In this document: one piece after another, positions 36,337-44,854 of the stretch
How positions within the stretch are numbered: position 1 is the first letter of the stretch
Layout of the letters: the number at the start of each line of letters is the position of its first letter
The notes under the pieces: generated by a model
The model's database searches: none
Seen by the model: only the letters and a program-made list of their open reading frames with translations
What the model was told of the DNA's origin: nothing
Origin: Kiritimatiellia bacterium
GTDB lineage: Bacteria > Verrucomicrobiota > Kiritimatiellia > RFP12 > UBA1067
Reading direction: 5' to 3'
DNA length: 64,000 nucleotides
Assembly: GCA_017514235.1 (NCBI GenBank)
Contig: JAFWKK010000036.1
Span: 1-64,000, forward strand
Position numbers and translations under genes: made by a program

Positions 36337-36345
36337 TGGTATAAT
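36337..36345 (+). promoter_or_regulatory. Extended -10 promoter of the ExbB/ExbD/VWA operon
   Basis: TGGTATAAT at 36337-36345, with a T-rich stretch before it and no clear -35 box. Leader about 54 bases, including a CCCTG/CAGGG hairpin, ending in AGGAAAGGCAAGGCGG before the ATG at 36406. Confidence 0.6.
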
Positions 36346-36405: not shown

Positions 36406-36879
36406 ATGGGCGACATAACATTCGAGCAGGCATGGAACTTCGGCGGGCCCCTCATGTGGGTGCTTGCGTTCTTCTCGGTGATGGGGCTTGCGGTGGCGTT
36501 CTACCTCTGGTATTCCCAGCGTCGCGGCATTTGCGTGCCCGATGCCGTCTCGCGTATACGTGCGGCGAAGGATCCTGCAGCGGAAGGCGGACGCATAGCC
36601 GACCGTATGATGGCGTCGGTGGACTGGCTGGCAGACATCGCGGCGATCTCGCCGCTCGTCGGACTGCTGGGCACGGTGCTCGGAATGTTCCGCGCGTTCG
36701 GCGGCATCGCTTCCGACGTGGCCGCAGGCGCAAAGCCAGTGGTGCTGGCTCAGGGCGTCTCTCAGGCGATAGTTACGACCATCTTCGGCCTTGTCGTGGC
36801 CATACCCGCGCTTCTCGCCCATGCGTTCTTCCGCCGCCGCGCCCAGCGCCGCATAGCCGAGATCGAGGAGCTGGCATGA
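36406..36879 (+). CDS. ExbB/TolQ/MotA family proton-channel subunit (short)
   Basis: A 157-residue inner-membrane protein with three hydrophobic segments: PLMWVLAFFSVMGLAVAFYL, then ISPLVGLLGTVLGMFRAFGG and QAIVTTIFGLVVAIPALLAH. The pair in the second half is the MotA/TolQ/ExbB signature that forms the pentameric proton channel. It is shorter than E. coli ExbB (about 240 residues), mainly in the cytoplasmic loop. With the ExbD homologue downstream (ATGA overlap) it would convert proton motive force into motion of a periplasmic partner; here the likely partner is the TonB-anchored VWA protein at 39190. Confidence 0.88.
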   Translation: MGDITFEQAWNFGGPLMWVLAFFSVMGLAVAFYLWYSQRRGICVPDAVSRIRAAKDPAAEGGRIADRMMASVDWLADIAAISPLVGLLGTVLGMFRAFGGIASDVAAGAKPVVLAQGVSQAIVTTIFGLVVAIPALLAHAFFRRRAQRRIAEIEELA

Positions 36880-37295
36880 AGTTCGTCCGCCGAACAGCCT
36901 CCCGTGCGCCCGGACTGGCGCTGACGTCGATGCTCGACGTGATTTTCCTTCTGCTCTGTTTCTTTGTGACGGTCAGCGTATTCTCGCAGTGGGAGAACGA
37001 GATTTCGATCCAGCTGCCGTCGGCGGCAACCGCGAAGGAGCCGGACCGCCTTCCCGGGGAGATCGTGATCAACCTGTCGAAGGAGGGCAAGGTGACGGTC
37101 AACGGGCGCGAGCTTGCCCTGGACGAGCTGAAGTCCCGCCTGGCGCGCATCTCGAAGTTCTACCCCGGCCAGCCGGTTATCATCAGGGCGGACCGCTCCA
37201 CGGCCTACGATAAGCTCGTTGGCGTGATCGACACCTGCCGTGAGGCTGACGTGTGGAACTTCTCGCTCGCCACCGAGGGAGGGGAGGGCAAGTGA
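36876..37295 (+). CDS. ExbD/TolR family proton-channel subunit
   Basis: A 139-residue protein with one N-terminal membrane helix containing the essential Asp21 (LTSMLDVIFLLLCFFVTV), then a periplasmic domain with EIVINLSKEGKVTVNGRELA and PVIIRADRSTAYDKLVGVID, the usual ExbD/TolR pattern. It works with the ExbB homologue as stator. The start overlaps ExbB (ATGA) and its stop overlaps the TPR gene (GTGA). Length is typical. Confidence 0.9.
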   Translation: MKFVRRTASRAPGLALTSMLDVIFLLLCFFVTVSVFSQWENEISIQLPSAATAKEPDRLPGEIVINLSKEGKVTVNGRELALDELKSRLARISKFYPGQPVIIRADRSTAYDKLVGVIDTCREADVWNFSLATEGGEGK

Positions 37296-39193
37296 CTCTC
37301 GCGGCCCTGGTGTTGGCGATCGCGGTGCTGCCGTCCGACAGGCTGGCGATGGCCGACCGTCTCTTCAACCGCGGGCGCTATGCTGATGCGGAGGCGGAGT
37401 ACCGTGCGCTTTCCGGCGCGAAGGGAGTTGCGGCCGACGAGTTGCTGTTCAGGCTGGCGGAGTGCGATCGTGTTGCCGGACGCAACGATGCCGCGCGTCG
37501 CGGATACGCCGAGATATTCAACCGCTATCCTGATTCGCGGCACGCCTCGCGGTCGCGGTTCATGTACGCGATGGGAGCGAGGGGAGCCGAGCGCACGCAT
37601 CTGCTGGCCGAGCTAGATTCCGACCGCGTCGCGACCGACGTGCGGGCCGCTGCGCTCTACTACTTGGGTTCGGAGACCGCCGACACGGAGGTTCTTGCCC
37701 GTTGCGTGAAGTTGGAGCCCAAGGGCAAGTACGCCCCTTACGCCAACCTTAAGATAGGAACGAAGTTCACCTCGTCGGACGACCCGGCCGTGCGCCGCAA
37801 GGGCGTGGAGACGCTGCTCGGGATCGCCTTCACGGGCGGCCCGATGGGCGCAGAGGCGCTTTATCTGGCAGCCCTGCAGTGCTACCGCGACCGCCGCTAC
37901 GGCGAGGCCGGCAGCCTCTTCCGGCGCTACCGCAAGCTGTACCCGTCGGGCGAGCACGCCGACGAGACGCGAACGATGTCAGTCTGGTGCGATTTTCTCG
38001 AAGGCCGGTACGCTGACGCGGCTGCGGCCTGCGGCAAGGGCGAGTCGGACGACCTTGCCTACATACGTGCGGCCTGCGCCTATGCGACGGGCGACAACGC
38101 GCGGGCGCTGGCCCTGTTCAAGAAGTACCTGGAAGATTACCCGGAAGGGCATTACCGGTCGGACGCCGAGCTTCCTGTGGCGCGCATAGAGTTCGAGGCG
38201 GCTCGCAAGGGCGACGATTCCGCGAAGACGGTTGAGACGGCGCGCCGCAGCTTCGGGCTGTCGAAGCTGGCGTCCGACCAGATACGGTTGGCGTGGGCCT
38301 ATGAGAAGGCGGGCAAGGCAGAGGCGGCCGCCGAGGAGTACGCGCAAGTTGCGAAGAAGTTTCCCGGCACGGACGAGGCGGCCGAGGCGATGTTCCGCCG
38401 GGCGATGATCGCGGCGGCGGCCGGCAACTGGTCTGGCGCGGAACTGGCGCTTGCGGAGGCGCTGGCGACGGGCCGCCTCGGGAAACGCAAGGCAGAGGCG
38501 CTCTACTGGCGCGGCGTGGCCGCCATGAAGCTCGGGCACGAGGAGACCGGCGCAGGGTTCCTGCGCGAGGCGATAGAGTCCGGGCTTTCGCTGGACGAGG
38601 CCCGCGAGGCGAAACTGATGGTAGCCGACTTCGACTACAAGTCCGGCAGGCTTGATGCGGCGCGGTCCGCATATTCCGAGCTGGTCCGCGACGGCGCCTG
38701 CGCGCGCATGAGCGCGTCGCGCATGCTTTCCGTAGGGCGGTTCCTCGGCGGGGCCGAGGCCGAGACATGCGCGCGGGAGCTCGCGAAAAGCGACGCGGCG
38801 GAATGGCGGCAGGCCGGCTGGGCGTTGCTCGGCTCGTGCGAGGAGAGCCGCGAGTCATATGCGGCCGCCATCGACGCCTACCGCAAGTGCCTGGCCGAGC
38901 CAGCCAGGACCGAGGCTGCGGCCGACGCGGCGCTGCGTCTCGGCAAGCTTGAGTTCCGCGCCGGTGAGTTCGCGGCGGCGGAAAACACGCTGAAGAAGGC
39001 GATAGCGCTGAATGCCTCCAACGCCCGCGCCCGCGCCGAGGCTTACGTCACCCTTGCGAAGAACGCGGAACAGGGCGGCGACGTGCAGTCGGCATGCGCA
39101 TACGCCACGGTTGTCGTGTCGCTGTTCGACGACGAGGCCCTGTGCGCCGAGGCGAAGCGGATACTTGCCGCGCATCCGGAGGCCGCGAAATGA
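37292..39193 (+). CDS. Periplasmic tetratricopeptide-repeat protein of the ExbBD-VWA operon
   Basis: A 633-residue protein starting at GTG 37292, which overlaps the ExbD stop. A short hydrophobic N-terminus (LAALVLAIAVLPSDRLAMA) is probably a signal peptide. The rest is about a dozen TPR-like helical pairs: LFNRGRYADAEAEYRALSGA, AARRGYAEIFNRYPDSRHAS, EAGSLFRRYRKLYPSGEHAD, ALALFKKYLEDYPEGHYRSD, KAEAAAEEYAQVAKKFPGTD, AAENTLKKAIALNASNARAR. This resembles the YbgF/Bam-type TPR proteins that accompany Tol and TonB systems, but much longer. It probably organises the envelope complex in the periplasm; the partner is inferred from the operon. Confidence 0.75.
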   Translation: MTLAALVLAIAVLPSDRLAMADRLFNRGRYADAEAEYRALSGAKGVAADELLFRLAECDRVAGRNDAARRGYAEIFNRYPDSRHASRSRFMYAMGARGAERTHLLAELDSDRVATDVRAAALYYLGSETADTEVLARCVKLEPKGKYAPYANLKIGTKFTSSDDPAVRRKGVETLLGIAFTGGPMGAEALYLAALQCYRDRRYGEAGSLFRRYRKLYPSGEHADETRTMSVWCDFLEGRYADAAAACGKGESDDLAYIRAACAYATGDNARALALFKKYLEDYPEGHYRSDAELPVARIEFEAARKGDDSAKTVETARRSFGLSKLASDQIRLAWAYEKAGKAEAAAEEYAQVAKKFPGTDEAAEAMFRRAMIAAAAGNWSGAELALAEALATGRLGKRKAEALYWRGVAAMKLGHEETGAGFLREAIESGLSLDEAREAKLMVADFDYKSGRLDAARSAYSELVRDGACARMSASRMLSVGRFLGGAEAETCARELAKSDAAEWRQAGWALLGSCEESRESYAAAIDAYRKCLAEPARTEAAADAALRLGKLEFRAGEFAAAENTLKKAIALNASNARARAEAYVTLAKNAEQGGDVQSACAYATVVVSLFDDEALCAEAKRILAAHPEAAK

Positions 39194-40836
39194 CGAAGGA
39201 GCGCCGCGAGGAAGCCGTGCTCGTGGCAGTCGCGGCGTCGGTGGCGATACACGTCGCGCTGATGCTGCTCGTGCGGCCCCATGTCATGACGCATGTCGTG
39301 ACAGATGCGACGAGGCACGTCCGCCACCCGCCGATGCGCGTCGTCAAGGCGGAGCAAAGGCCGGACCCGGTCGGCATCGGCGCGCTGGAGGATTTGCAGG
39401 CGGCGAAGGACGCGCCCGTCGCGGCCGTGGCGGTTCCCGTGGCCGAGGCCGTGGCCGACGGGCCTGTACGCGCGCCTGACGCGCCGGCACCGTCGGCAGT
39501 GGACGACACCGTGCCTCCGCCGCCGAAGGCCCCGGTGTTCGACGTGAGTCCCGTGAAGACAGGCGGCAAGGACGCCGCGGGAGGCGTCGCCGTTCCGATC
39601 ACGCGCATCGAGACGCCTGAGGCTGCCGCAGCTGCGGATTCCGCGCCGACGTTCTCGGTCGAGGTCCCGAAAACGGTGGTTCGCGAGGCCCCGCCCCCGC
39701 CGTCAGTTCCGCCAGCAGTCGCCGCCAGCGACCCGGTCGAGGCCCTGGGACCTGCGAAGATCATGCGCGAAGAGGCGTCGCGCGCCGCCCCTCCTCCCTC
39801 GTTCACTCCGGCGGCGGAAGTCTATGAGAAGGTAGACGAGCAGGTCGTTGCCGCAGAGAAGAAGGCGGTGAGCGCGCTTGTCGCCGCAGAGGACGCGAAG
39901 GAGCTCTCGAAGGCCGTCAACGCCGTCATGACTGCGACTGCCAAAGACGGATGGACGTATTTTCGCGTGATGCTCTCCCCGCGCGCCTCGCTGTCGGTCG
40001 TGCCCAAGGACTTCGTGGTGCTGATCGACGCGTCCGGGTCCATCGGCAAGGACAGAATGGCGTCGATACGCGGCGCGGCGCGGCGGATCCTGCGCAGCGC
40101 GGCGAACTCCGACGACCGCTTCAACCTCGTCGCGTTCCGCGACAGGTTCTCGTATGCGTTCCGCCAATGGCAGGAATGCACCAAGTCTTCCTTTGACGCG
40201 GCGGACAGGTGGATCGACAACCTGGCCGCTCACGGTCGCACCGACGTGTTCTCCACCATCAGTTCGGTGCTGACGCTGCCGCGCGACCCGACGCGTCCGC
40301 TGATTGCGCTCGTAGTCACCGACGGAGAGGCGAACGAGGGCGTGAGCGACACGGGGGAGATACTGTCAAAGTTCACGGCGCTCAACGACGGGCTGATCTC
40401 CGTCTACATGTACGGAGTTAAGACGTCGGCCAACCGTGCGCTCATAGACGTGCTCACGCGCGGCAACCGTGGCGAGAGCCTCATCTTCGACGGCTGGCAG
40501 AGGCGGCGGGCCGGCAGCGGCATAGAGGGCCTCACCGAGCGCTTCCGCGACCCGGTGCTGACCGACCTGCGCATCGTGTTCGCGTCCGGCACGCGTGCCG
40601 AGGCGTATCCGCGGCTCTTGCGCAACCTCTATCGCGGCGGGACGCTTGCGTTCGTCGGGCGGGTGCCGTCCGGCACGAAGGAGGTCGCGTTCTCCCTGAA
40701 GGGCCTGAACGGGAAGGACGCGTATGAGGGCTTCTTCAAGCTGCCGCTTGGAACGGCGCCCGCCGATCCGTCCGTTGCGGCCGCATGGAACGAGGAGCTG
40801 TCCATCGACAAGAGGCTTGGGTCGCATGCGAAATAG
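39190..40836 (+). CDS. TonB-anchored von Willebrand A (VWA) domain protein
   Basis: A 548-residue protein. The N-terminus has one membrane helix (about 9-28) with the TonB/TolA-type S17-x3-H21 pair (ASVAIHVALML), the pair that in TonB interacts with ExbBD. Residues about 35-215 are a Pro/Ala/Val-rich spacer like that of TonB. Instead of a TonB C-terminal domain there is a VWA domain (about 270-470) with an intact MIDAS: D280-x-S282-x-S284 (LIDASGSIGKD), the Thr in HGRTDVFST and the Asp in VTDGEANEG. A beta-rich tail (VLTDLRIVFASG, NLYRGGTLAFVGRVPSGTKE) follows. Last gene of the ExbB-ExbD-TPR operon; ATGA overlap. It would present an energised, metal-dependent ligand-binding head in the periplasm or near the outer membrane. 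Confidence 0.8.
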   Translation: MTKERREEAVLVAVAASVAIHVALMLLVRPHVMTHVVTDATRHVRHPPMRVVKAEQRPDPVGIGALEDLQAAKDAPVAAVAVPVAEAVADGPVRAPDAPAPSAVDDTVPPPPKAPVFDVSPVKTGGKDAAGGVAVPITRIETPEAAAAADSAPTFSVEVPKTVVREAPPPPSVPPAVAASDPVEALGPAKIMREEASRAAPPPSFTPAAEVYEKVDEQVVAAEKKAVSALVAAEDAKELSKAVNAVMTATAKDGWTYFRVMLSPRASLSVVPKDFVVLIDASGSIGKDRMASIRGAARRILRSAANSDDRFNLVAFRDRFSYAFRQWQECTKSSFDAADRWIDNLAAHGRTDVFSTISSVLTLPRDPTRPLIALVVTDGEANEGVSDTGEILSKFTALNDGLISVYMYGVKTSANRALIDVLTRGNRGESLIFDGWQRRRAGSGIEGLTERFRDPVLTDLRIVFASGTRAEAYPRLLRNLYRGGTLAFVGRVPSGTKEVAFSLKGLNGKDAYEGFFKLPLGTAPADPSVAAAWNEELSIDKRLGSHAK

Positions 40837-40863: not shown

Positions 40864-40893
40864 TTGCCGAGAGACGCGGACTTGTGGTATAAT
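40864..40893 (+). promoter_or_regulatory. Promoter of the pseudopilin cluster
   Basis: TTGCCG at 40864-40869, 18 bases, TATAAT at 40888-40893 preceded by TGG. The ATG at 40904 is 10 bases after the -10 box, so the leader is at most a few bases. Confidence 0.6.
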
Positions 40894-40903
40894 CTCACTT
40901 GGC

Positions 40904-42077
40904 ATGAGAAGGGCATTCACACTCGTCGAGCTGCTTGTGGTGGTGGTGGTGATCGTCACGCTGATGGCGATTGCTCTTCCGATCTGGCAGCGTTGGCTCG
41001 CAATCGACGTTCAAGTCACGTACGATCAACCGCATGCAGCGGCTCGAAAACTGCCTTTCGGGATATTACGCCGCATACGGAAGTTATCCGCCGGTCGCCT
41101 TGCACGGCAGCCGAGACTACACTCTCAGGGTCGACGGCCACGGCATACAGCAGGAAAACCGCCATGAGCCGGACCTTGACTGGAGGCGCGTCGAAGCGGC
41201 TTGCCGCAGCCAGCCGGTCGGAATGAGCTTCCCGTTCTCGAGCCAGGATGTCGCCAGCTACGTCGAGGAGATTTCCAGGCTGCTGATGGAAAAGGCCAAC
41301 TCCAACGAGGCCCGCTACAAGAACTTCAGGGACAACGAGGCTCTCAAGTACGGCTTCTTCGCCCTTACCGGCAACTCACAGATACAGAGCAAGTCCAAGT
41401 ATTCGTCATGGTCGCAGGTGCAGGTGTTCAAGCTTGGGCTCATGAGTTACCTGTTGCCGCGGCTTCTGGTGATATTTAACGTCCAGTCCGGTTCCGGCAG
41501 CGCACCTTCCGGGTTCAGCCAGCTGTTCTCGAAACAGAATCAGTGGACCATGTGCAACGAGCTGCCGTGCGACTTCTCCACCGGCCAGCCGTATGCCAGC
41601 TGGGACGACGTGATCAGGGACATGTGGAGCAGAAACGACCGGTGGAAGATCGCCGCCCTTCCGTCCCAGGCGGTCTGTGCGCGCTGGATGCCCAACCTGG
41701 AGGGGATCGTCGCGGGCGCGTCCTACAGCCGCATGTTTTACGGCGTGCGCCCCTACGACACCGTACACGGCTCATACGTGGTCTCTGCCGACACGGTCAA
41801 TCCTACGCTGTACTCGGCTGGCGACTCGCAGAGCGGCGGCGACAACTACTCGCAGCAGTATCTGCTCGACAACATGACTGTCTTGGACGGGTGGGCCCAC
41901 GAATTCTACTACTATTCGCCCTCGCCGCACCAGTCCTACACGCTGTGGAGCGCGGGCCCGAACGGCAGGACGTTCCCGCCGTGGGTGACGGACGAGGAGC
42001 TTTCGCAGCTCAGAAGCTCCGATCGCACGACGGCACAGTCGTGGATCGCCGACGACATCGTGCATCTGAAGAACTGA
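40904..42077 (+). pseudogene. Prepilin-type protein, frameshifted after the N-terminal helix
   Basis: The gene starts MRRAFTLVELLVVVVVIVTL with the prepilin cleavage site (A/FTLVE) and membrane helix, in the frame of base 40904. After LMAI (codon ending 40972) that frame goes astray and stops at 41167. The expected continuation LFRSGSVGSQSTFKSRTINR, then MQRLENCLSGYYAAYGSYPP, lies in the +1 frame from 40974 and runs to TGA 42077. One extra base near 40973 therefore splits it. The C-terminal part is about 367 residues and ends near a LWSAGPNGRTFP loop. Either a real disruption, a programmed shift or an assembly error; no homopolymer lies at the site. It heads the pseudopilin cluster. Confidence 0.75.
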
Positions 42078-42097
42078 GAAGGGTTGGGAGGTTCGGA

Positions 42098-42733
42098 ATG
42101 TTGAGAAAGAAGGTTCAGAGGTTTTCGCTTCCTGGCTTCACCTTGATCGAGATGCTGGTGGTGATGGGCATTCTGGCCATTCTCATCGGCGCGGGCATGA
42201 CCACGTTCTCGGCGGCTACGAAGAAGGCGCAGCAGGCCCGCGCCCGCGAGGTCGTGAGCAACGTGGCGACAGCCCTTGAGGCCATATACCAGCGCGAAGG
42301 GAGCTTTCCGCGGCGTGTGCTCAGCACCGGCGGCCGTGACGGCGAGATGACCGACGACGTGGCCTACGAGCTGGCGAAGCGAAACGTGATGACGCTGACA
42401 TACGACAGCAGCAAGAAGAAGACCGTAGGCGCCGACAGCTGCGGCATACTTACGCCGTGGGGGCAGGACACGGTGAAGCGCAAGGGCAACAGGGGCGTCT
42501 CTGACAGCACGAAGGTGCCGTCGGGCGGCACGATCAAGGACCACCGCATCCACTTCGCGGTCGACACCGAGGGCTTGGGCTATGTCAATGCGTCGGTCGG
42601 CGGCGAAACGGTGAAGATACGTGCTTCCGCCGTGGCATGGAGCTGCGGAAGGGACGGCAAGATCGAGAAGTACACCGACGGGCTTCGGCGCGACAACTGC
42701 TACAGCTGGAGCCGCCAGCAGGTTGAGAAGTGA
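42098..42733 (+). CDS. Prepilin-type (pseudopilin) protein 2
   Basis: A 211-residue type II secretion/type IV pilus-like pseudopilin. The leader ends SLPG/FTLIEMLVVMGILAIL with Gly at -1 and Glu at +5, cleaved and N-methylated by a prepilin peptidase not present in the window. The helix continues ATKKAQQARAREVVSNVATALEAIYQREG, the GspG-like spine. The C-terminal domain ends with AWSCGRDGKIEKYTDG, comparable to the calcium loop of GspG. GGGAGG lies about 6 bases before the ATG. Confidence 0.85.
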   Translation: MLRKKVQRFSLPGFTLIEMLVVMGILAILIGAGMTTFSAATKKAQQARAREVVSNVATALEAIYQREGSFPRRVLSTGGRDGEMTDDVAYELAKRNVMTLTYDSSKKKTVGADSCGILTPWGQDTVKRKGNRGVSDSTKVPSGGTIKDHRIHFAVDTEGLGYVNASVGGETVKIRASAVAWSCGRDGKIEKYTDGLRRDNCYSWSRQQVEK

Positions 42734-42753
42734 CAAGGGGGAGCTAAAGAAAG

Positions 42754-43404
42754 ATGACTAGGGGAACTGGTAGAAAGGGACTGTCGGCAGGCTTCACCAT
42801 CGTCGAGCTTTTGGTGGTGATCTCCATCATCGGCATTCTGCTCGGCATCGTGACGACGGCTGCCACGGGTTCGATCAAGAACGGGCGTTCGCGCCGCGCC
42901 GAGGCGATGGCCAACGCCCTGCAGCAGGCGATCGCGGCGTACTACGCGCAAGAGGGCCGCTGGCCGGATGCGATCGAGTCGCGTAGCGGCAGCATGGGCA
43001 ACAAGACCAAGTACACGTTCACCGCCACCGAGGCCGACCAGATATTCCGCGACGTCGTCCGCAAGTCGGTAGGCACTGGCGCGTCGCGTCCGCTCGTCGA
43101 CGCCTCTGCGCTTTTCGTGGCGAACGCAAGCCGGGTGCGCGGCGACGGTTGCTTCGACGTGCACGGCGACAAGAGCTGCACGGCGTACTGCGGCGATCAG
43201 CACTGCATAAACGGCGTCGACTTCTCGCTTGCCGCCAACAAGGACTCGAAGGTGCACGTTCCGCTCAGCAACATGGCGTTCGGCTGGCAGGGCCGAACCA
43301 ACGGCAAGTTCTGCCGCTTCTGGATAACGTACAACTCGCAGACCGACTCCGTGAGCGTGTCGCGCAAGCACCCTGAGAAGAGCTATCCTGCCGACTGGGA
43401 GTGA
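42754..43404 (+). CDS. Prepilin-type (pseudopilin) protein 3
   Basis: A 216-residue pseudopilin with leader ending LSAG/FTIVELLVVISIIGIL (Gly -1, Glu +5), then a helix with SRRAEAMANALQQAIAAYYAQEG. The C-terminal domain contains two Cys-rich points (GDGCFDVHGDKSCTAYCGDQ and HCIN) that may form disulfides after export. A GGGGGAG ribosome site precedes the ATG. It lies between two other prepilin genes and likely belongs to the same assembly. Confidence 0.85.
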   Translation: MTRGTGRKGLSAGFTIVELLVVISIIGILLGIVTTAATGSIKNGRSRRAEAMANALQQAIAAYYAQEGRWPDAIESRSGSMGNKTKYTFTATEADQIFRDVVRKSVGTGASRPLVDASALFVANASRVRGDGCFDVHGDKSCTAYCGDQHCINGVDFSLAANKDSKVHVPLSNMAFGWQGRTNGKFCRFWITYNSQTDSVSVSRKHPEKSYPADWE

Positions 43405-43412
43405 CGATCGAG

Positions 43413-44267
43413 ATGCGCCGCGCGTTCACATTGATGGAGCTGATGGTCGTCGTGGGAATCATGGCGTTCCTCGGCGTCGCCGCGACAAACGGCTATAACG
43501 CCCTCCAGCGCGGCATGGCGGAACGCGGGGCCGTCGATGCGGCCAGCGCGCTGCTGAAGGCCGCCAAGGAGCGCGCGATGGTCGATCGCGTGCCTACGGC
43601 GGTGTTCTGCTACAACCGCATGATTCGCGAAGCGTCGGAGGACGAGAACGCCGTAATAGTTGGCGAGGCTGTGGCGATCCGCCGCTACGGGCGCATCACG
43701 TGCGTGCAGGGCAAGTACCTCTACGATGAGTTTGGCGACCTTGACAGCAGCTACGACAGGCTGACGTCAAGCCAGCAGTCCGAACTGCAGAACCGCAAGG
43801 GAATGCGCCTTTGGCGATTTGACGACCAGGACATGGCCCAGATGCAGTATTCGGTAGTCGCCGATGCGGTGTATGACGACAATGACATCGGCGGAGCATT
43901 CTCGTTCATGCCGTGGGGCGACCAGCTGGGCGACAACGGCGGCAGCTCGTCGAGCAACATTGAGATTCGCGCATGCGCGTTCTACAACCTTGACAAAAGC
44001 GACCATGAGCCACCCTCCTGGCAGGTCGGCAACGGATACGGCTTCGAGTTCCAGACAATCCGCCTTCCCGATGGGTTCGTGTTCAAGAACACCATTCCCT
44101 CGAGAGTCGGCAGCGTTGCGATGGCCGGTTCCTTCCTCTTCGATCCGGCGAACTTTTCCGCGAACGAGTCGATTGACATTTGGGCGTGCCGGGCGGACGC
44201 TAGCGGCGTATCGCGGCCGCACCACAAGGCGGGCACGGCTACCAGCTCCGGAGACAAGGCCAAATGA
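43413..44267 (+). CDS. Prepilin-type (GspH-like) protein 4
   Basis: A 284-residue pseudopilin beginning MRRA/FTLMELMVVVGIMAFL with Ala at -1. The region after the helix (LQRGMAERGAVDAASALLKA followed by AKERAMVDRVPTAVFCY) resembles GspH/FimT minor pseudopilins. The C-terminal part is beta-rich and ends Ser/Lys-rich. I chose ATG 43413, which has GGAGTGA 9 bases upstream; GTG 43401 is an alternative that overlaps the previous stop. It overlaps the next gene by ATGA. Confidence 0.8.
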   Translation: MRRAFTLMELMVVVGIMAFLGVAATNGYNALQRGMAERGAVDAASALLKAAKERAMVDRVPTAVFCYNRMIREASEDENAVIVGEAVAIRRYGRITCVQGKYLYDEFGDLDSSYDRLTSSQQSELQNRKGMRLWRFDDQDMAQMQYSVVADAVYDDNDIGGAFSFMPWGDQLGDNGGSSSSNIEIRACAFYNLDKSDHEPPSWQVGNGYGFEFQTIRLPDGFVFKNTIPSRVGSVAMAGSFLFDPANFSANESIDIWACRADASGVSRPHHKAGTATSSGDKAK

Positions 44268-44854
44268 AGCGCATGAGACAGGCTTTCACCCTTATGGAGG
44301 TAAACCTCGCCATCTTCATCATGGCGACGGGCGTGCTGGGCATGGTTTCGCTATACTCGCTTGGCTTCCGCGAAAGCCGCCAGAGCGAGGAGGACGTCGC
44401 TTCAGCCGGCCTTGCCGACGCGTTTCTCTCTCCGCTTGTGACAGGGCTTTCGGCAACTAACATGACGTGGAGCGGCTGGTGCCAGGCCGTGCCTCACATA
44501 TCCAGCGAAGCCTGCAACGGGCTTGCGCCGCAGAAGGGCGGCGACAACAACGGTTGGGCGGCCTACGTGACGAGGCTGGACTCCGACGGCGACGGCGCAT
44601 ATGAGTCATATCGCGTCGACTCCGGGTGGCAGAGTCTCGCCAACAGGGTCTTCAGCGGCATCATCGGGCAGGTTCCAAGCGAATACAGGGGTTCGCTTCC
44701 GTCGGTCAGCTCCGACTATTGCTACGGGCTTGTCGCGACGCGCAAGGGGTCGACCATCTCGCTGGCGTTTCGGGCGAGCCGGCGCCGCGAGGCGTTGCTT
44801 AGCCAGCCGGTATATTACACCGAAGTTCATTTCCAGGGGAGGACAGACCAGTGA
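44264..44854 (+). CDS. Prepilin-type (GspI/PilV-like) protein 5
   Basis: A 196-residue minor pseudopilin, leader KRMRQA/FTLMEVNLAIFIMA with Glu +5 and the ATGVLGM turn typical of GspI/PilV. The middle has a D-x-D-x-D-G loop (RLDSDGDGAYESY) that could bind calcium. Overlaps its neighbours by ATGA and GTGA. Predicted to act at the tip of a short pseudopilus, by analogy with GspI. Confidence 0.78.
   Translation: MKRMRQAFTLMEVNLAIFIMATGVLGMVSLYSLGFRESRQSEEDVASAGLADAFLSPLVTGLSATNMTWSGWCQAVPHISSEACNGLAPQKGGDNNGWAAYVTRLDSDGDGAYESYRVDSGWQSLANRVFSGIIGQVPSEYRGSLPSVSSDYCYGLVATRKGSTISLAFRASRRREALLSQPVYYTEVHFQGRTDQ

Follow-up and report, generated by a model that had tools for sequence, protein, structure and literature searches.

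Force transducers that join a TonB/TolA-type membrane helix to a vWA head were recently proposed in bacteria of the PVC (Planctomycetes, Verrucomicrobia and Chlamydiae) group (Williams-Jones et al., 2025; PMC12204202). In that paper, the helix, proposed to dock at the edge of the motor, is followed by a disordered linker with a predicted motor-box strand and by the vWA head, the transducer genes adjoin tolQR-like and tetratricopeptide repeat (TPR) genes, and the SHLS motif is ascribed to "many" of the proteins, not all. The Tichowtungia vWA gene lies 3' of a TPR gene, a tolQ-like gene and a pair of tolR-like genes, and a second family, TPH-vWA/TolQ, has a vWA protein without the SHLS residues and no tolR or exbD nearby (PMC12204202). 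The paper reports no phenotypes for vWA transducers and is cited by PMC12905483. Here, we describe an ExbB-ExbD-TPR-VWA operon found in a 64,000-nucleotide stretch of a Kiritimatiellia genome (contig JAFWKK010000036.1, positions 1 to 64,000; hereafter, the window). Among the papers listed by our literature searches, only PMC12204202 looked relevant to such a system; a first-pass annotation of this DNA, to which no published system like it was known, was wrong on that point.

Organization of the Operon

The operon occupies positions 36406-40836 of the forward strand and consists of four same-strand genes in the order ExbB-ExbD-TPR-VWA, the stop of each overlapping the next start by 4 nucleotides at every junction, and its VWA protein carries a TonB-like anchor. 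The Pfam matches given below and these overlaps bear out the gene set of the first-pass annotation, whose coordinates and residue numbers proved correct when the window was read again. The features of the operon are as follows:

36406..36879, + strand: ExbB/TolQ/MotA-type proton channel subunit, 157 amino acids (PF01618, 1.3e-24)
36876..37295, + strand: ExbD/TolR-type subunit, 139 amino acids, with membrane Asp21, of a distinct ExbD clade (PF02472, 1.4e-27)
37292..39193, + strand: TPR protein, 633 amino acids from a GTG start (Pfam TPR families)
39190..40836, + strand: putative VWA-headed TonB/TolA-like transducer, 548 amino acids (PF00092, 7.7e-10)
39199..39282, + strand: N-terminal membrane helix of the VWA protein, residues 4-31 (AlphaFold2 helix 4-31)
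39238-39240 and 39250-39252, + strand: codons of S17 and H21 in this helix
39283..39837, + strand: Pro/Ala-rich disordered linker, residues 32-216 (37% Pro+Ala; blocks of the predicted local distance difference test, pLDDT, mostly 45-58)
39907..39981, + strand: strands N-terminal to the VWA domain, residues 240-264, belonging to an accessory beta domain (predicted strands 243-252 and 255-264)
40000..40554, + strand: VWA domain, residues 271-455, with the metal ion-dependent adhesion site (MIDAS) residues D280, S282, S284, T351 and D378
40555..40749, + strand: beta strands C-terminal to the VWA domain, residues 456-520, resembling those of inter-alpha-inhibitor heavy chain 1 (predicted structure)

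A MIDAS is defined by D-x-S-x-S plus a Thr and an Asp. The VWA protein contains D280-A-S282-G-S284, with T351 and D378 completing the five-residue set, and the TonB-type helix with S17-x3-H21, the Pro/Ala spacer and the MIDAS-bearing VWA domain all lie at the residues first assigned to them. A Pfam search of the C-terminus, suggested in the first pass as a check, matched VWA and found neither TonB_C nor TonB_2 in the protein at E<=1, ruling out a TonB_C domain hidden in the tail. The predicted model of the head aligned with 6fpy_A over residues 240-548, at about 17% identity.

The motor side of the operon is ordinary in its sequence. GLLGT[VI]xG is present in 23/23 ExbB rows of the clade, two of which (L078 and L192) come from one genome, and the membrane residue D21 of ExbD is invariant in the 14 rows of alignment A1. 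In the ExbD tree, one clade (21 rows, support 90/88) unites linked, unlinked and Omnitrophota ExbDs; it is sister, with support 90/81, to a group containing one of the two Tichowtungia-type ExbDs. This tree used 57/61 rows, as three were dropped by hand and L180 fell outside the trimming pattern, and the row set had been filtered beforehand, the window-type ExbD of L097 being among the rows removed.

The TPR protein scores 106.5 bits against TIGR02795 (ybgF), above the cut-off of 90.1, and an alternative in-frame GTG at 37253 would extend it to 646 amino acids. By eye, the TPR proteins have signal-peptide-like N-termini, from which export to the periplasm seems probable. No lipobox was flagged in them, a result made unreliable by several N-termini that are overextended or cut.

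Conservation of the Anchor and the Head

Across the window protein and its 119 close homologues, S17 is conserved in 120/120, H21 in 119/120 and all five MIDAS residues in 120/120. Conservation of the linker is below that of the helix and head, although single linker positions are kept among close homologues; the PMRV island at residues 48-51, for instance, is found in 105-113 of the 120 and is not kept in diverse sets. A Ser-x3-His pair within an N-terminal hydrophobic helix was found at 38 of 41 loci, including the window, the misses being L079, L091 and L092. L091 and L092 were rejected as members of the VWA family on the grounds that they have no anchored S-x3-H.

Similar results came from more diverse alignments. 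A2, whose 53 rows comprise 17 of the 120 homologous proteins and 36 loci (L082, L091, L092 and L095 were left out), retains S17 in 52/53 rows, H21 in 51/53 and the MIDAS residues in 53/53. Within its first 130 residues, M1 and P109 (51/53) are the sole other columns conserved above 90%, and the linker varies from 154 to 254 residues (median 189). In A3, S17 and H21 are the only invariant columns among the first 130 residues, a selected figure of 20/20 since its rows were picked from the 41 loci and L079 (without the Ser), L091 and L092 are among those omitted. Conservation in homologues, loci and A2 rules out a chance origin of S-x3-H. A helix devoid of ExbBD-contact features, together with an operon not conserved elsewhere, would have refuted the first-pass annotation, and the near-invariance of this Ser and His indicates otherwise.

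Distribution and Co-occurrence

In the window's family, the VWA protein was matched in 105/115 genomes at E<=1e-3, with a single match in 100/105. The matches are strong in 102/115, the other three (G006, G062 and G113; E 4e-6 to 4e-4) probably being other VWA proteins. The class is Kiritimatiellia, as judged from its named members (a protein of a Kiritimatiellia bacterium, and T. aerotolerans). Of its 81 genomes in the phylum sample, 60 have both the VWA protein (A3 at E<=1e-70) and an ExbD of the clade (A1 at E<=1e-28), 18 have neither, three have ExbD only (G033, G140 and G219) and none has VWA only. G164 and G334 were rejected as carriers and scored absent, as their A3 matches (7e-47 and 7e-42) begin at about profile position 281. 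G325, with a VWA fragment, was left out of the co-occurrence table, and most ExbD matches without VWA outside the class were not entered. The 60 genomes with both genes represent 23 families and the 18 with neither represent six others, so that independent losses may be few. Outside the class, ExbD is present in 22 of 23 genomes with VWA.

Of the 60 genomes with both genes, 18, from ten families, have ExbD and VWA in the same operon, and the full ExbB-ExbD-TPR-VWA order is present on a Candidatus Omnitrophota contig (L196). The neighbourhood search suggested in the first pass thus found the gene order recurring elsewhere. ExbD genes were detected in all 21 genomes probed for unlinked genes, and this co-occurrence despite chromosomal separation implies that ExbD and VWA genes stay together in genomes when unlinked. 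Intermediate arrangements are also found. ExbB-ExbD lies apart from TPR-VWA in G021 and G064, a TPR match has no ExbD match beside it in G028, G203, G319 and G326, and an ExbB-ExbD-TPR run without VWA (L166-L171) is present in six genomes (G296, G299, G121, G332, G161 and G226), where inspection found no membrane-anchored S-x3-H gene directly 3' of the TPR gene. Separately, a Chlamydiia contig (L231) encodes an S-x3-H VWA protein, with no ExbB/ExbD match on its 6 kb.

Relation to Published vWA Transducers

The locus that we take to represent the Tichowtungia family can be compared with that of the window. In T. aerotolerans (G195), locus L269 reads TPR-262 amino acids-ExbB-ExbD-ExbD-VWA-VWA, and its VWA protein, of about 475 amino acids, has S31-x3-H35. 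No match to the window's type was found in T. aerotolerans at the thresholds used, and a scan with profile A5 did not reach Tichowtungia. The two types share 72 alignable columns. D-x-S-x-S is present in 0/15 aligned rows of the Tichowtungia type (A6, 15 rows taken from 120 listed proteins, the best 120 of 177 found), though the motif is retained by a more distant relative in L283. Several Tichowtungia-type matches per genome occur in G195, G149, G271 and G334. At E<=1e-10, A6 matched 59/240 genomes. Among these are 28 of the 60 window-type carriers in the class, often with weak matches; at this threshold it matched 0/10 sampled genomes of the window's family, and nothing in the window's own genome. 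With its single ExbD, TPR gene in third place and lack of an A6 match, the window locus does not fit the Tichowtungia type in the narrow sense. Nor does it fit TPH-vWA/TolQ, because S17, H21 and ExbD are all present.

Proposed Mechanism

We consider it likely, from sequence and by analogy with TonB and TolA, that the operon encodes an envelope-spanning force transducer driven by the proton-motive force and ending in a metal-dependent VWA head. ExbB and ExbD would form the inner-membrane motor, and the VWA protein would use S17 and H21 of its helix to dock on ExbB, in the manner of TonB and TolA. The Pro/Ala linker would span the periplasm, and the head, with its VWA domain and inter-alpha-inhibitor-like beta domain, would bind a ligand at the outer membrane or close to it via a MIDAS-bound divalent metal. 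The strokes of the motor would put tension on the bond between head and ligand, with the CpoB-like TPR protein as a likely periplasmic partner or adaptor. The four genes, helix residues, intact MIDAS, conserved operon and co-occurrence support this model at the level of sequence, and the head fold does so as a prediction, while we infer the docking, coupling, metal binding, force, role of the TPR protein and location of the ligand. MIDAS domains bind an acidic side chain of their ligand through a divalent metal. Catch bonds are reported for the MIDAS domain of Mdn1 (PMC8837202), and by analogy a bond strengthened by force is plausible here. Given an invariant MIDAS in a head that would be under pull, a bond that depends on metal and is loaded by force becomes a concrete hypothesis.

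Several observations weigh against this model. At the position of the Glu in the third helix of E. coli ExbB, the window's ExbB has Gln and its relatives have Gln, Glu or Lys. The full SHLS motif is incomplete in the VWA protein, where V28 and V32 presumably correspond to the later Leu and the last Ser of the TonB motif and fall in columns that are variable in A2, and in the AlphaFold2 monomer model the linker lacks a "motor box" strand. ExbD and VWA are unlinked in 42/60 class genomes, in 39 of which they lie on separate draft contigs, and the window's TPR protein was matched in only 16/21 genomes tried (not in G176, G160, G197, G318 or G301). The co-occurrence probability (p = 2.9e-15) ignores kinship, and the six families without both genes may be one clade, leaving few independent events. 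Outside the class, VWA is absent from 39 of 61 genomes with an ExbD profile match (a hand count in which G325 has a fragment), so that in those genomes such motors may work with different partners.

Alternative Explanations

The published work raises the possibility, against which we lean, that the window operon belongs to the Tichowtungia vWA force-transducer family and is nothing more. The shared plan, with tolQR-like and TPR genes beside a protein that has an SHLS-type helix, a disordered linker and a vWA head, in PVC hosts, argues for this, as does the sister position of the window-type ExbD clade to the group holding one Tichowtungia-type ExbD. The differing locus order and ExbD number, the loss of D-x-S-x-S throughout the 15 Tichowtungia-type rows, the few alignable columns, and the failure of either type's profile to match the other's representative or family argue for separation. 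PMC12204202 may itself list loci of the window's type. A rather unlikely alternative is that the operon functionally replaces Tol-Pal, the VWA head standing in for TolA/TolB to stabilize the outer membrane or division. TolB_N was matched in 0/115 family genomes, with E. coli, Caulobacter and Bacteroides controls positive, and canonical Tol-Pal goes undetected by TolB_N, which makes a Tol-like role possible and worth testing. The strong and usually single VWA matches in the family and the ybgF score fit this idea as well. The search for TolB, however, relied on one Pfam family in drafts, with Pal and outer-membrane ligands not sought; ybgF matches can arise from any TPR array, and the set is absent from six class families (18 sampled genomes).

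The VWA protein might instead be an anchored adhesin or assembly factor, the ExbB-ExbD-TPR genes serving another TonB-like protein and the operon reflecting mere neighbourhood, which we regard as quite improbable. The frequent unlinked VWA genes, for example beside CoaE-like and Rho-like genes (by eye), favour it, and the window's own genome (G000) has five ExbB loci (C28, C32, C25, C62 and C34) and two TonB_C proteins (C34 and C11). Yet S-x3-H is kept even in unlinked VWA proteins, every sampled class genome with the VWA protein also has an ExbD of the clade, and no other anchored S-x3-H gene directly follows the TPR gene where VWA is missing (L166-L171). Coupling of ExbBD to a VWA head, rather than activation of a TonB receptor, appears the better reading by sequence and analogy: the first-pass interpretation stood with respect to the missing TonB_C, the conserved Ser and His and the conserved operon, and its claim of novelty did not, given PMC12204202.

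Possible Other Heads on ExbBD Motors

Anchored proteins with heads resembling alpha-alpha toroids (SQHop_cyclase/Prenyltrans-like) follow ExbB-ExbD-ExbD at L279:7037-8533, L282:5353-6786 and L286:4549-6063. Another toroid-headed anchored protein follows ExbB-ExbD-ExbD in the window's own genome (L178:8012-9739), and two more such cases were recognized by eye (L287:4643-6148 and L271:5046-6557). The L279 protein is above the Pfam cut-off (52.8 bits) and those of L282, L286 and L178 are below it. Of the anchored proteins that follow ExbB-ExbD-ExbD at L284:4855-6465, L268:7697-8845 and L270:6035-7147, one has DUF4159 (2.7e-30), and the other two carry S-x3-H but matched nothing in Pfam at E<=0.05. 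In the window's own genome, the C28 ExbB-ExbD pair precedes a 303-amino-acid anchored protein without a Pfam match at E<=0.01. The toroid-headed proteins suggest that ExbBD motors carry exchangeable heads.

A bolder proposal, which we think unlikely, is that the single-ExbD motor, CpoB-like TPR protein and MIDAS-bearing VWA head form the family's main envelope tether. The proton-motive force would then load a bond that is metal-gated in the way of an integrin, and perhaps of the catch type, as a substitute for TolA-TolB-Pal, and the ExbBD motors of the class would drive exchangeable heads (VWA, alpha-alpha toroid and DUF4159). The window's operon itself raises the question of how bacteria without detectable TolB hold their outer membrane. 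With VWA never found alone in the class sample, a predicted class of proton-driven transducers can now be tested with a clear set of partners.

Neighbouring Genes and Candidate Promoters

A TATAAT sequence lies at 36340-36345, about 60 bases 5' of ExbB (by eye only). One further feature lies 3' of the operon:

40864..40893, + strand: promoter-like site 5' of several consecutive prepilin-like genes (supported only by a consensus match; 1 site found where 0.4 would be expected)

This site suggests that the transcription unit ends at 40836. The prepilin-like genes, recognized by eye from FTLxEL-type N-termini, extend over about 40904-44854, directly after the operon. A gene of 462-472 amino acids that resembles argininosuccinate lyase by eye is immediately 5' of ExbB at L061, L062, L063, L068, L071 and L078. 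The neighbour names ArgH, CoaE, Rho and SecA were assigned by eye, without a family search.

Comparison With Known Systems

TonB-ExbB-ExbD resembles the window's system in its motor subunits, S-x3-H helix and Pro-rich linker, whereas the window protein has a VWA head and no TonB_C match, and its operon includes a TPR protein. Tol-Pal (TolQRA and CpoB) likewise combines a TolQR-like motor, an anchored transducer and, in one operon, a CpoB-like TPR protein; the window differs in having a VWA head where Tol-Pal has TolA domain III, and TolB_N is unmatched in its family. The head shares its predicted fold, a VWA plus beta domain, with inter-alpha-inhibitor heavy chain 1 (6fpy), an animal protein without a motor anchor, at the low identity given above. 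The VWA domain and its flanks (residues 241-516) also match TIGR03788, the marine proteobacterial sortase target family, at 74.8 bits, far under the cut-off of 551.65 bits, and membership in that family was rejected. The closest resemblance is to the published vWA transducers, which share the PVC hosts, the tolQR-like motor and nearby TPR gene, and a protein that runs from an SHLS-type helix through a disordered linker to a vWA head. The Tichowtungia type has its TPR gene first, two ExbDs and no D-x-S-x-S, whereas the window's type has its TPR gene third, one ExbD, an intact MIDAS, an inter-alpha-inhibitor-like beta domain and usually one copy. The differences in gene order, ExbD number, MIDAS and profile matches suggest a separate variant, and the window's type looks like a well-delimited one within the predicted vWA force-transducer idea.
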